Assembly: GCF_900176435.1 (NCBI RefSeq)
Contig: NZ_FWYE01000002.1
Coordinates: 248,001-312,000 of the forward strand
Length of the DNA stretch: 64,000 nt
Reading direction: 5' to 3'
Origin: Picrophilus oshimae DSM 9789
Lineage (GTDB): Archaea > Thermoplasmatota > Thermoplasmata > Thermoplasmatales > Thermoplasmataceae
Shown one piece after another: positions 35,637 through 40,450 of this stretch (the stretch's first letter is position 1; each line of letters begins with the position of its first letter). The notes under the pieces are model-generated. The model did no database searches and was not told where the DNA came from. It saw only the letters and a list, made by a program, of their open reading frames with translations. The position numbers and the translations under genes were made by a program.

Positions 35637-36959
35637 TTATTTTAATGGTGTATTTTTTGTCTCAGGCGCAAGCAAAAGAGTTATAATCAGACCTATGAAT
35701 TCAAAGGCTGCAAAGTATATTACTATTGCCTTAAGACCAAACAGCGCATCGATAAATGGAAATGAAAATACGGCAAGTATTGATCCGAGCCTTGAAAATG
35801 ATGTTGAAAAGCCCATGGCACTTGCCCTTATTCTTGTCGGAAATATTTCAACAGGATAATCATACGTCATTGGGCTTGGTCCTATATTATGGAAGAAGTG
35901 AACCAGTCCGAAGGCGCTGAATGTGAATAAAAACGTTATTGATATAAATTCATTTATAAAAAAGAATGATATCAGAACTATCAATGAGCCCAAAAAGCCA
36001 ATTATTAAAAGCGGCCTCCTGCCGATGCGCTCAACATAGTATATGGCTATTATAAAGCCGATAAAAACAGGAACGGATTCTGCCATGCCTGAAAAAACAA
36101 CGTATAAATTGGTGTAAACAGAGCTTATCTGCGTTGAGAATATTAAAGGTGAATATGTCCATATACCATAGCTGACAACATCATATGAGAACCATGCTAT
36201 TGAAACAAAGATTGTCATTAATATGTATTTTTTGCTGAATATATCGGATAATTTACTTTTACCCTTTTCCAGCTCCGGAATGCCCATGAAATGGAAACCG
36301 GTTTCGCTCTCTATTTTTTTGTCGAGGTTTTTAAGTGCATTGTCACCGAATTTTTCCTTCAGCCAGTACGGCGTCTCCTCAAGACTGTTCCTTGAGAAGA
36401 GAACTATTAATGGAAAAACAGCACCTATAATATACATATAGCGCCATGCATATGGGCCGGTGAAAAGCACAAGGGGTATTGCAACTATTAAAAATATTAA
36501 AGAGCCTATGGAGAATGAAAATATATTAAAGACAAGGTATTTGCCACGTTTTTCCTGCGGTGAATATTCAGCCTGTATTGATGAGCTCACAGGATAATCC
36601 GCACCTATGCCTATTCCGGCCAGAAACTGGAAAATTGAAAACTCTATGTAATTTACAGAAAATCCTGTTATGAAGATAAATATGGAAACAAATATTAAAT
36701 CGTATAAGTATATTGATTTTCTGCCATATTTATCTGCAAGATGGCCAAATATTACACTTCCAACAAAGACACCCATTATTGATGATATACCCATTATTGA
36801 GATCTCATAGCTGGATAGATGCATCTCCGGTATTAAATATAAAAGGGCATATGAAAAAACGGTTAATGTATAACCATCCATAACTATACCCATTGATGAG
36901 AGTATGGTTATTCTTCTCATGAATTTTACAGGATTTCCATGATAACTAACATATTCCAT
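35637..36959 (-). CDS. MFS transporter of the sugar/metabolite porter type
   Basis: About 440 residues with 12 helices. FGHLADKYGRKSIYLYD near 75-92 and FLAGIGIGADYPVSSSIQAEY near 113-134 are the typical helix 2-3 loop and helix 4 signatures, and YPVEIFPTRIRASAMG near 368-383 is the second-half signature. The large loop between halves (residues 200-240) is hydrophilic. Substrate unknown. The start is ATG 36959; the TTG five codons upstream is weaker. It is convergent with dys. Confidence 0.82.
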   Translation of the reverse strand: MEYVSYHGNPVKFMRRITILSSMGIVMDGYTLTVFSYALLYLIPEMHLSSYEISIMGISSIMGVFVGSVIFGHLADKYGRKSIYLYDLIFVSIFIFITGFSVNYIEFSIFQFLAGIGIGADYPVSSSIQAEYSPQEKRGKYLVFNIFSFSIGSLIFLIVAIPLVLFTGPYAWRYMYIIGAVFPLIVLFSRNSLEETPYWLKEKFGDNALKNLDKKIESETGFHFMGIPELEKGKSKLSDIFSKKYILMTIFVSIAWFSYDVVSYGIWTYSPLIFSTQISSVYTNLYVVFSGMAESVPVFIGFIIAIYYVERIGRRPLLIIGFLGSLIVLISFFFINEFISITFLFTFSAFGLVHFFHNIGPSPMTYDYPVEIFPTRIRASAMGFSTSFSRLGSILAVFSFPFIDALFGLKAIVIYFAAFEFIGLIITLLLAPETKNTPLK

Positions 36960-37001: not shown

Positions 37002-40000
37002 TTATTTTTGAGTTTTAATAACCAGGTACTTTTTGCCATCCATATCCTCTTCAATTTCTATAATGCCATTTAATCTCAAATTTTTGATCTCCTTTTTTAA
37101 TGCATGCCTTGATATGCTGTGCCTTCTGCATGTTTTATATATAACGGAGAGCGGTTTTCCATTCATTGAATTTATAAAATCGCCTATATTTTTATTTTTG
37201 TATCTTAATTTATAATATGCAATAAAAGATGCCAGGATGATTAATATTATTAAAATGTAATAAACCGGAGACCCTGTAACAATAATGTATCTTGTATAAT
37301 AAACTGTTTTGCCGTCAAAGCTTAACCTTGCTGTAATGTTGTTGTAACCCAACGGCATTTTATATTTTATAATGCTGCCGGAACCAATGTATTTTCCATT
37401 TAAGAACCATGAAATAGAAACGTTTTTTGTATTTATGCCATTAAGAATTAAACTCAAAATGCCATTGTTATAATCTATACTGTATTTGTATATTTTAATA
37501 AAGTAATTTATGCCTGCATTGATTTCAACTCTCGATTCCGTTTTAAACAATGACTCTGCTGTTATGTTTATCCTGTAAAGACCGTTTTTATTAAATGTTA
37601 TATTAAAATATGTGTATCTACCAGGATTGACTATAATTCTTGTTTTATTCATGTAATCTATTATTAATTTATATGGTTTTACCGGATAATGTGTGTATAT
37701 CCTCATGTACAGTGTGTTGTTTGAAATTCTATGGTAAACCGTAATAATTGGCGTTTCAGTAAAATAATATACAATAATATGAAATGAGTTGTAATTACCT
37801 GTTTTTGAATAATACTTTACATTGAATTCATAAATTTTGTTACTTAATGTTAAATGTATTGAGCCATTGAAGTATTCATTGTTTATATAATATTTATAAT
37901 CTTTATTTAGGCTTATGTTAAGGTATGGTTTATTAATATAATATGTGCAATTTTTATAAACTTTGGGTATTGAATTATTAACGTAGAAATAATATGTATA
38001 TTTTGATTTTAGGCCATTTATTCCTGATAAATTTAATATCAAAATATAAATCCCGTTTCCATGAAAATTTCCAGAATTACCTGTTATATTTATATAATAG
38101 CTATTTGTAAAATTTTTAGAATTGTATGTAAAAATTGTTTTATTATTAAAAATAATTGATGCATTTAACTCTGCAGGCATGTTCACCTTTATTGAGATGT
38201 TCATTGTATTGTTATCTGAATTGCCATAGAATGATAGATTGTCTGTATTTACATGATATATTATTCCTGGTTTGTATGTTATCACAGTTATATCATATTC
38301 AGGGCCTTTAACCGTAATATTTCCTCTTAAAATTATGTAAAATGATACATTGTACAATCCATTTTTCAGTGATACATTTATATAATCATTGAATGTTTTA
38401 TACGTATTATTATTTATTTTAACAATATATGATGTTGCATTTTTTATTTTATTCCATGTGATGTTTATTTTACCTGAATTAAAGTATTCATTATTTTTTA
38501 TGTTTGTTTTCATCACCGGAATTGCCATTACATGGTATGTTACATTTTTGTAATAAAGTAAATTATATTTATCCAGTGTTGTAAATCTCAATGTAATATT
38601 TCCAGTGTAATTGCCAAGGGATAGATTAAAGCTTGAATTTCCATTAAAGGTTAAGTTTACATTTCTGTATTTAACATTAATGTATTTTAAATTAAACTCA
38701 GAAACATAGAACCTTACCGTCTGATTGTATATAACATATGAATTGTTCTCTGGATAAACATAGATACCGGGATACTTCAATGAATAGATCTTTAATGATC
38801 TTTCACAGGTATAACCTGCGGTATTTGTTACATTTATAAAGGCATTGTATATACCCTGGCCCACATTGCTAAGATTTAATTTCATAAATTTATTTATATT
38901 AAATGATCTTGAATTAAAGCTTAAAACTGATCTATAAGGAAGGTATGATGATACGTTTAAGTATATTAAATTGTAATCAAAATATTTTTTTACGGTTATA
39001 TTATCTATCTCTGGATGATATGCAGATAGATAATCATTCTTATAATATATATAAAATGTGCTGTTTTTAAATGATAGAATCGCGCCCCCATCAATTGATA
39101 TATTTTTATAAATCTTCGTTTTGCCGGAACTTGAATAAAGATATGAATTGTAAAAAAATGATGTGCCATTATATAAAATCAGTGGGCTGACTGAAATGTA
39201 TGGCATTTTTGGAAGCATGTTTATGTATATTCCATTGGATGATATTAACGGCCAGAGTGCACTTCCGTCGTTTATATATTCTATTGTTGATTTTGAGACG
39301 TTTATATAATAAATATTAACGATCTCATTATTTAAAAATTTTGATAGATAAATGGAGCCTCTTGATTTGTATATAATAAACAATGACTTATCATGGTACG
39401 CTCCTATGACGGTGCCGTTTATATTTATTATATTTTCATTATAATATATGGCTGTTTTATTTATAAATATAATATTGTTTGAATCACGGTATGCGTATAT
39501 ATATCCATTATTTTTAAAATACCTTATTTTAAAGGCTGCATTTGTTTTTGATATCGTTACCATTGAGATGTTATTTTTTATTAAAAACAGGGTTATGTTC
39601 CCTGAGTCCTGATAGAATAAACTGCCAGATACATTATTTAATTTACCATAATAACTTTTATTATAATAGTTATATGCAATTAAACTTTTATTGTTTATAT
39701 AAAAAACAGTGTTCAATGACCTTGCAAGAAAGGCGTTTTCAATATTTTTATCCACATTAAATGAGATGCATTTATAGTCATTTAAGCTATTATTAAATAT
39801 ATTATACGGTATGGATTTATAATTGTATATCGTTTGATCCGAGTACTGCCCGCCAAACATTATTGAAAGGTTGCCTGTATATATCTTTTTTAATTGAATG
39901 TTATATACATCATTATTAAATGCAAGATATACATGTTTTGAATTGTTTGAAATAAATATTTTAAAATAATAGATATGATTCATTTCTGACAGGTTTATTG

Positions 40001-40364
40001 AAGCATAATCTGAATTGCATATTAATGTGTTGTAGCAGAGATATGGACCGTATGATATATTTAATAATGTTTCATTGTTTTCTGAAAGCAGGATCGAATT
40101 CTCTGTTCTGCCATAATCATAGCAGTTATTCCATGATATGCCAAATGAATATTCTGTATAATTGCCAGATGGATAGTCAAACCTTAAATATGATGGTTTT
40201 TGGCATTTTGTCATAAATGTAATTGAATTATTATTACATTTAATGATATCATTTTCATTTTTATTTACTATTGATACATATGGACTGCCGGCATGTGAAT
40301 CGTGAAGGCTTAGAGCAGGCATGCACATAATTATTATTATGGCAAATACAAAAATGCCCCTCAT
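37002..40364 (-). CDS. Giant surface protein anchored by one C-terminal helix with a cytoplasmic winged helix
   Basis: 1120 residues. Residues 1-20 (MRGIFVFAIIIIMCMPALSL) are a signal peptide. The next thousand residues are rich in Asn, Tyr, Ile and Ser with dozens of N-x-S/T sequons. The N-terminal half has repeats of strand-like blocks that could form a propeller (for example NNIIFINKTAIYYNENIINI); the second half looks like a string of Ig/fibronectin-like modules. One hydrophobic helix at about 1033-1055 (PVYYILIILIILASFIAYYK) is followed by 65 residues, INSMNGKPLSVIYKTCRRHS then RHALKKEIKNLRLNGIIEIE, that read as a winged helix. This architecture suggests an outside-in sensor that contacts DNA, or a wHTH used for protein contacts. 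A palindrome lies at its own promoter. Confidence 0.7.
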   Translation of the reverse strand: MRGIFVFAIIIIMCMPALSLHDSHAGSPYVSIVNKNENDIIKCNNNSITFMTKCQKPSYLRFDYPSGNYTEYSFGISWNNCYDYGRTENSILLSENNETLLNISYGPYLCYNTLICNSDYASINLSEMNHIYYFKIFISNNSKHVYLAFNNDVYNIQLKKIYTGNLSIMFGGQYSDQTIYNYKSIPYNIFNNSLNDYKCISFNVDKNIENAFLARSLNTVFYINNKSLIAYNYYNKSYYGKLNNVSGSLFYQDSGNITLFLIKNNISMVTISKTNAAFKIRYFKNNGYIYAYRDSNNIIFINKTAIYYNENIININGTVIGAYHDKSLFIIYKSRGSIYLSKFLNNEIVNIYYINVSKSTIEYINDGSALWPLISSNGIYINMLPKMPYISVSPLILYNGTSFFYNSYLYSSSGKTKIYKNISIDGGAILSFKNSTFYIYYKNDYLSAYHPEIDNITVKKYFDYNLIYLNVSSYLPYRSVLSFNSRSFNINKFMKLNLSNVGQGIYNAFINVTNTAGYTCERSLKIYSLKYPGIYVYPENNSYVIYNQTVRFYVSEFNLKYINVKYRNVNLTFNGNSSFNLSLGNYTGNITLRFTTLDKYNLLYYKNVTYHVMAIPVMKTNIKNNEYFNSGKINITWNKIKNATSYIVKINNNTYKTFNDYINVSLKNGLYNVSFYIILRGNITVKGPEYDITVITYKPGIIYHVNTDNLSFYGNSDNNTMNISIKVNMPAELNASIIFNNKTIFTYNSKNFTNSYYINITGNSGNFHGNGIYILILNLSGINGLKSKYTYYFYVNNSIPKVYKNCTYYINKPYLNISLNKDYKYYINNEYFNGSIHLTLSNKIYEFNVKYYSKTGNYNSFHIIVYYFTETPIITVYHRISNNTLYMRIYTHYPVKPYKLIIDYMNKTRIIVNPGRYTYFNITFNKNGLYRINITAESLFKTESRVEINAGINYFIKIYKYSIDYNNGILSLILNGINTKNVSISWFLNGKYIGSGSIIKYKMPLGYNNITARLSFDGKTVYYTRYIIVTGSPVYYILIILIILASFIAYYKLRYKNKNIGDFINSMNGKPLSVIYKTCRRHSISRHALKKEIKNLRLNGIIEIEEDMDGKKYLVIKTQK

Positions 40365-40401
40365 ATTTCGGTATAAACAATAATTTAAAATTTTTTATGT
40401 T

Positions 40402-40414
40402 TTACACAGTGTAA
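40402..40414. promoter_or_regulatory. Perfect palindrome at the promoter of the giant surface protein
   Basis: TTACACAGTGTAA is a 13-nt perfect palindrome with a central A, 38-50 nt upstream of ATG 40364. A TATA candidate (ATTTTAAATTATT on the minus strand, near 40380-40393) lies between it and the start, so the palindrome is on the upstream side of the core promoter. Confidence 0.5.
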
Positions 40415-40450
40415 TATATAAAATTTGGGTTAAATAAAAAATAAAAGAGA

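Follow-up and report, generated by a model that had tools for sequence, protein, structure and literature searches.

P0001, encoded in the 64,000-nucleotide stretch of the Picrophilus oshimae DSM 9789 genome analyzed here (the window), is best read as a type-I membrane glycoprotein that the Thermoplasmataceae inherit vertically and carry in single copy. Given that its topology and winged-helix tail were supported by structural modeling and by conservation, a one-component membrane sensor is our leading hypothesis, although we hold the transmembrane, outside-to-gene regulator tentatively, at a little less than an even chance. P0001 would then be a sensor of a kind so far undescribed in this group. 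An earlier note on this DNA had proposed the same function; topology, a modeled winged helix, and family-wide conservation now speak for it, while two of its arguments, an autoregulatory palindrome and the lack of a partner gene, were lost.

Architecture and predicted glycosylation of P0001

The source genome comprises 1.53 Mb in six contigs, and the ortholog in the sister genome (G095) is 65% identical to P0001 across its whole length. The gene and the parts of its product are as follows.

37002..40364, minus strand: complete ORF of surface protein P0001, 1,120 aa, with its ATG at 40364 (ORF listing and translation)
40305..40364, minus strand: signal peptide, approximately residues 1-20 (hydrophobic N-terminus in full-length orthologs; modeled helix 3-13)
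39807..40223, minus strand: jelly-roll-like N-terminal beta domain, approximately residues 48-186 (AlphaFold2 whole-protein model, moderate confidence)
39042..39773, minus strand: beta-propeller-like domain, approximately residues 198-441 (regular beta-strand repeats in the model)
37278..39011, minus strand: about seven Ig/fibronectin-like domains forming a stalk, residues 452-1029 (model pLDDT mostly 75-90; Foldseek)
37200..37268, minus strand: transmembrane (TM) helix, residues ~1033-1055 (hydropathy and a helix in the model)
37017..37193, minus strand: cytoplasmic winged helix, residues 1058-1116 (AlphaFold2, Foldseek, profile matches, conserved residues)

Hydropathy and the model confirmed the layout described in the earlier note, namely a signal peptide, an ectodomain of about 1,000 residues, a single TM helix, and a tail of 65 residues. 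The whole-protein AlphaFold2 model, built on an alignment of 36 sequences, had a mean pLDDT of 72 and a pTM of 0.32, at which the positions of the domains relative to one another carry no meaning. The structure prediction suggested in that note for the ectodomain returned an all-beta, receptor-like fold with a jelly roll, a propeller-like part, and approximately seven Ig-like domains, names that we assigned by eye from the strand pattern; pLDDT fell below 50 around residues 363-425 of the propeller-like domain. Foldseek matched the ectodomain to tandem Ig/Fn3 ectodomains (GhpA, ROS1, Robo2, MDGA1). P0001 has this arrangement in common with ROS1/Sevenless-type receptors, of which ROS1 adds beta-propellers, and with the GhpA grappling hook, but there was no sequence kinship (8-15% identity), and whole-chain query TM-scores below 0.2 indicate a shared building plan only. 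Short orthologs (711-763 aa) kept the head, the last Ig-like domain, the TM helix, and the tail, and lacked most of residues ~528-951; the tail was thus present even where about 400 stalk residues were missing.

The ectodomain carried 55 N-glycosylation sequons compared to a mean of 22.9 in 2,000 shuffled sequences (sd 4.1, max 42), which bears out the earlier description of it as sequon-rich. Across 56 orthologs, 2,958 forward sequons were counted versus 1,279 of the reversed pattern, with forward exceeding reverse in every one (56/56). Given that sequons exceeded the shuffles and that the forward pattern prevailed in all 56 orthologs, N-glycosylation of this family is probably under selection, as judged from sequon counts. 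As in archaeal N-glycosylated surface proteins, a secretion signal and sequons above chance were both found. The source genome encoded an archaeal STT3-like protein (E = 6e-51, yet below the curated cut-off), and the PF02516 model had no match in this genome. The STT3 match (L181, contig C1:176369-178138) was located within a 2,065-aa open frame, unusually long for an oligosaccharyltransferase.

The winged-helix tail, its distribution, and known regulators

Modeling of the last 65 residues, from which a winged helix had been claimed, produced one. The tail-only AlphaFold2 model, based on 30 sequences (pLDDT 83, pTM 0.65), had the helix-helix-helix-strand-strand order of a canonical winged helix, with H1, H2, H3, and a two-strand wing with a D-x-D-G turn. 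A 71-residue Foldseek query against the PDB matched winged helices (ORC2, MarR-type proteins, ST1710, MepR, SlyA, LmrR) at a probability of ~1.0, with query TM-scores of ~0.57-0.72 among the ten leading matches; none had E <0.001, which is unsurprising for 71 residues. A PDB profile search with the tail returned weak matches to the winged helices of MCM, AdcR (MarR-type), and LrpA (Lrp). Full-length P0001 had nothing significant in Pfam or NCBIfam, its tail had no DNA-binding Pfam match above cut-off, and 44 family members yielded scattered weak Pfam matches, the best to HTH_24 (E=0.0008), with MarR_2 matched weakly in 3/44. Basic residues (K/R) at positions 1073, 1077, 1080, and 1081 of helix 2 were kept in 81-88% of sequences, and K/R at 1090, D1107, and D1109 were also conserved. 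The exposed positions of helix 3 were K/R in 48% and D/E in only 3-6%, and the turn of the wing was acidic (D-x-D-G), not basic. A gap of 3-12 residues (median 9) separated the TM helix from the first buried position of helix 1.

Relatives of P0001 were found in 63/117 genomes of the order, all within one family. In a class-wide sample, the tail profile detected one strong copy per genome in 32/33 Thermoplasmataceae genomes; what it found in the other families of the order was only weak and for the most part partial. The search for paralogs with the same tail, as the earlier note had proposed, revealed no strong one in the source genome (next best E ~0.07). On the basis of these comparisons, P0001 is a single-copy ortholog conserved in the Thermoplasmataceae. 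Named relatives, retrieved by a scan with the conserved neighbor gene, belonged to Thermoplasma, Cuniculiplasma, and E-plasma records. In Thermogymnomonas acidicola (L152:10756-13377, NZ_BBCP01000008), the ortholog was split over several frames, and the adjoining GAPDH gene was also broken; given this broken neighbor, errors in the sequencing explain the split better than a pseudogene would. Our literature search on Thermoplasma and Picrophilus surface proteins found no paper treating this protein; secreted beta-propeller or "S-layer" proteins of the order are mentioned in two papers that do not identify it (PMC10354927, PMC5155288).

A second family of the class (f15) had proteins of ~600-1,860 aa with a matching tail (L154, L155, L156, L179, L180). 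The three that we read (L154-L156) had a hydrophobic N-terminus, an unrelated ectodomain, which contained PKD domains in L154 and was otherwise unassigned, one TM helix, and then the same type of tail, with L155 and L156 ending without the basic helix 2. This comparison of predicted proteins shows the TM-winged-helix ending as an apparently portable module fused to different surface domains.

Transmembrane transcription regulators (TTRs), which have TM and DNA-binding domains, are common and known in archaea, with single-pass types being the most common, and have been surveyed by identifying DNA-binding domains through Pfam profiles (PMC10269533). Like these, P0001 combines a TM helix and a winged helix predicted to bind DNA in a single polypeptide: at least one TM helix was predicted, the cytoplasmic part had a winged-helix/HTH fold (pLDDT 83, Foldseek), and no Pfam-recognized DNA-binding domain was found in the tail. 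It differs from TTRs in its C-terminal, membrane-abutting winged helix, its very large, predicted glycosylated ectodomain, and its absence from Pfam. Given that its tail has no above-cut-off match to a DNA-binding Pfam profile, the family was probably invisible to this survey and missed by it. Two Sulfolobus acidocaldarius proteins, ArnR and ArnR1, are one-component regulators that are bound to the membrane and carry an HTH domain. In ArnR this domain is N-terminal and is accompanied by HAMP-like and sensing domains, with a pair of TM helices at the C-terminus (PMC6396743), whereas P0001 has a C-terminal winged helix, one TM helix, and ~1,000 residues outside.

The ToxR/CadC type, defined by an N-terminal cytoplasmic OmpR-like winged helix and a C-terminal ectodomain, was rejected: in P0001 the winged helix is C-terminal and the ectodomain N-terminal after a signal peptide, and no Trans_reg_C match was listed. 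DUF7343 (PF24034) proteins are linked to membrane regulators and, like P0001, have an archaeal winged helix. This assignment was also discarded, as the PF24034 profile missed the P0001 gene, with two weak matches elsewhere in the same genome; for the ectodomain side of this comparison, Pfam and NCBIfam searches of P0001 returned no match. The MarR-type soluble regulators ST1710, MepR, and SlyA have the winged-helix fold in common with the tail, but membership in the MarR family was set aside, as the 65-residue tail consists of H1-H2-H3 and the wing only, without dimerization helices. The MarR wing is basic (D/R); P0001 has a D-x-D-G turn in its place and is tethered to the membrane.

Gene neighborhood and promoter

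In the window, a zinc-type alcohol dehydrogenase gene upstream of P0001 and an MFS transporter gene downstream, 42 nt past the stop codon (counted from the MFS ATG at 36959), lie on the same strand. Both neighbors were kept in the sister genome, and this synteny was not conserved outside the genus. In most other genera, the P0001 ortholog is instead found beside c2, a conserved, secreted single-TM protein of ~180 aa. We counted this linkage over the 26 loci holding both genes: in 20 the ortholog was on the same strand and no more than 130 nt upstream of c2, in 4 the two were convergent and within 35 nt, and in 2 they were farther apart (635 and 4,429 nt). The statement that no partner gene is adjacent was therefore misleading, both for the alcohol dehydrogenase and MFS genes and for c2, and the derived argument that P0001 forms a complete system without a partner fails, as orthologs usually adjoin this small secreted protein. 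At many loci, genes to which we gave names by eye also recurred, with UbiX, a Mut7-C protein, and Pelota following and GAPDH, RadA, and an HTH-containing protein on the opposite side.

The c2 gene (L049:7200-7745; L142:9145-9786; C6:17633-18157 in the source genome) was found in 51/51 high-quality genomes of the order, with the motifs GAYPGFSWSKP and FVLYFVFNRRK, and is a possible signature protein of the order. The Thermoplasma c2 had no Pfam match, and c2 of DHVE2/Aciduliprofundum-type relatives contained a calcium-loop-like motif, DxDxDGY. The source genome has c2 on a different contig from P0001, beside a secreted subtilase. This membrane-anchored protein of 1,076 aa with an Fn3 domain (L141:10344-13574, contig C6) is encoded divergently beside c2, in the place that the winged-helix protein takes elsewhere in other genera. 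L149 and L150 encode proteins of comparable size and topology at that position.

Two elements upstream of the ORF bear on the proposed autoregulation.

40402..40414, no strand assigned: 13-nt palindrome TTACACAGTGTAA, put forward as a site of autoregulation and judged a chance feature
40415..40422, minus strand: likeliest TATA box TTTATATA, immediately adjoining the palindrome and upstream of it; its TATA role is presumed

The palindrome exists at 40402-40414, as the earlier note stated, but the evidence argues against an autoregulatory role. Palindromes of the 6+1+6 form were at chance frequency in the window (30 vs. 30.8 expected) and in its intergenic DNA (7 vs. 5.0 expected); the proposed genome-wide search found TTACACAGTGTAA at this one site only; and the sister species carries TTACAATTGGTAA at this position, where the palindrome is imperfect. 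Among 38 ortholog upstream regions, a shuffle test revealed no general palindrome excess, with 3/38 reaching the 10% level, about as expected by chance. The palindrome was consequently rejected as an operator, and neither these counts nor the 38 upstream regions yielded an operator or regulon of P0001. Its placement upstream of the TATA box holds only if the box is TTTTAAAT (40390-40383); the TATA-like block AATTTTATATATTACA, identical in the sister genome and the strongest conserved promoter-like element, abuts the palindrome on the upstream side.

Possible roles: regulator, tether, or adhesion protein

As a one-component regulator, P0001 would present a glycosylated, receptor-like ectodomain outside the cell, its jelly-roll and propeller-like head borne by the Ig-like stalk, from which the single TM helix would lead into a cytoplasmic winged helix starting ~3-12 residues from the membrane. 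Binding or deformation outside would alter how the winged helix pairs, or how accessible it is, at the inner face of the membrane, and this domain would then act on DNA brought to the membrane. We infer from this architecture that P0001 may bind DNA, sense an external signal, and control target genes. The canonical fold of the tail, with its matches to MarR-type regulators and ORC winged helices, favors this reading, as do the conserved basic residues on helices 2 and 3, which fit DNA binding, the retention of the tail in stalk-shortened orthologs, and its single strong copy in 32/33 family genomes with no strong paralog in the source genome. The same ending on unrelated ectodomains in another family is expected of a portable signaling module, and archaea are known to have membrane-bound regulators of the one-component type (PMC10269533; ArnR, PMC6396743). 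On the other hand, no operator was found, the palindrome being unique and at chance level, the turn of the wing is acidic, a linker this short limits how the domain can reach DNA, and winged helices also serve as protein-interaction modules. The main contrary evidence is the divergence of the presumed DNA-reading surface: between 18 genomes, the exposed recognition-helix residues were 16% identical, below both the tail (26%) and the stalk (25%), whereas the presumed recognition helix of the HTH-containing neighbor was 56% identical in the same genomes (52% overall). Such fast divergence argues against a conserved operator.

Conserved charge with free residue identity would also fit nonspecific DNA binding or membrane contact, and for this reason we entertained two other functions. 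The main rival is a nucleoid-envelope tether, in which charge-based, sequence-independent DNA binding would hold the chromosome at the membrane beneath a surface glycoprotein. The conserved basic charge of helices 2 and 3 without conserved recognition-helix identities, a single-copy, lineage-wide occurrence like that of a housekeeping part, the linker of only 3-12 residues, and the failure to find an operator are consistent with it; the elaborate head domain is hard to explain in this way, and the endings of L155 and L156 in the other family have no basic helix 2, and we regard a tether as unlikely. Acidophilic archaea of this lineage are mostly wall-less. The broader proposal that the glycoprotein acts as a charge-binding nucleoid-envelope tether or mechanosensor, rather than as a classical operator-binding regulator, seems improbable to us. 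It is also doubtful that P0001 is an adhesion or structural surface glycoprotein whose tail binds proteins or lipids instead of DNA, with the cytoskeleton, the secretion machinery, or the inner leaflet as proposed partners. Ectodomain folds like those of adhesion receptors and grappling proteins, the linkage to another secreted single-TM protein (c2) in most genera, a membrane-near basic helix 2 that could touch lipid head groups, and weak recognition-helix conservation point in this direction, but the K/R-rich, acid-poor exposed face of helix 3 is a nucleic acid contact pattern, and the nearest solved structures are DNA-binding winged helices. A tail of random basic sequence or a mis-assembled ORF, as the lack of an above-cut-off Pfam match might suggest, is extremely improbable: the winged-helix model is confident, and intact orthologs in dozens of independently sequenced genomes rule out an artifact.

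The one-component membrane sensor therefore remains our leading hypothesis. Little is known of how these archaea relay information from outside to their genes, and counts of membrane-bound regulators have relied on Pfam DNA-binding profiles, which miss P0001. If the tether or mechanosensor reading were true, a surface glycoprotein would physically join the cell exterior to the chromosome throughout the lineage. P0001 is thus a testable candidate for outside-to-gene signaling or chromosome-membrane attachment in acidophilic archaea.
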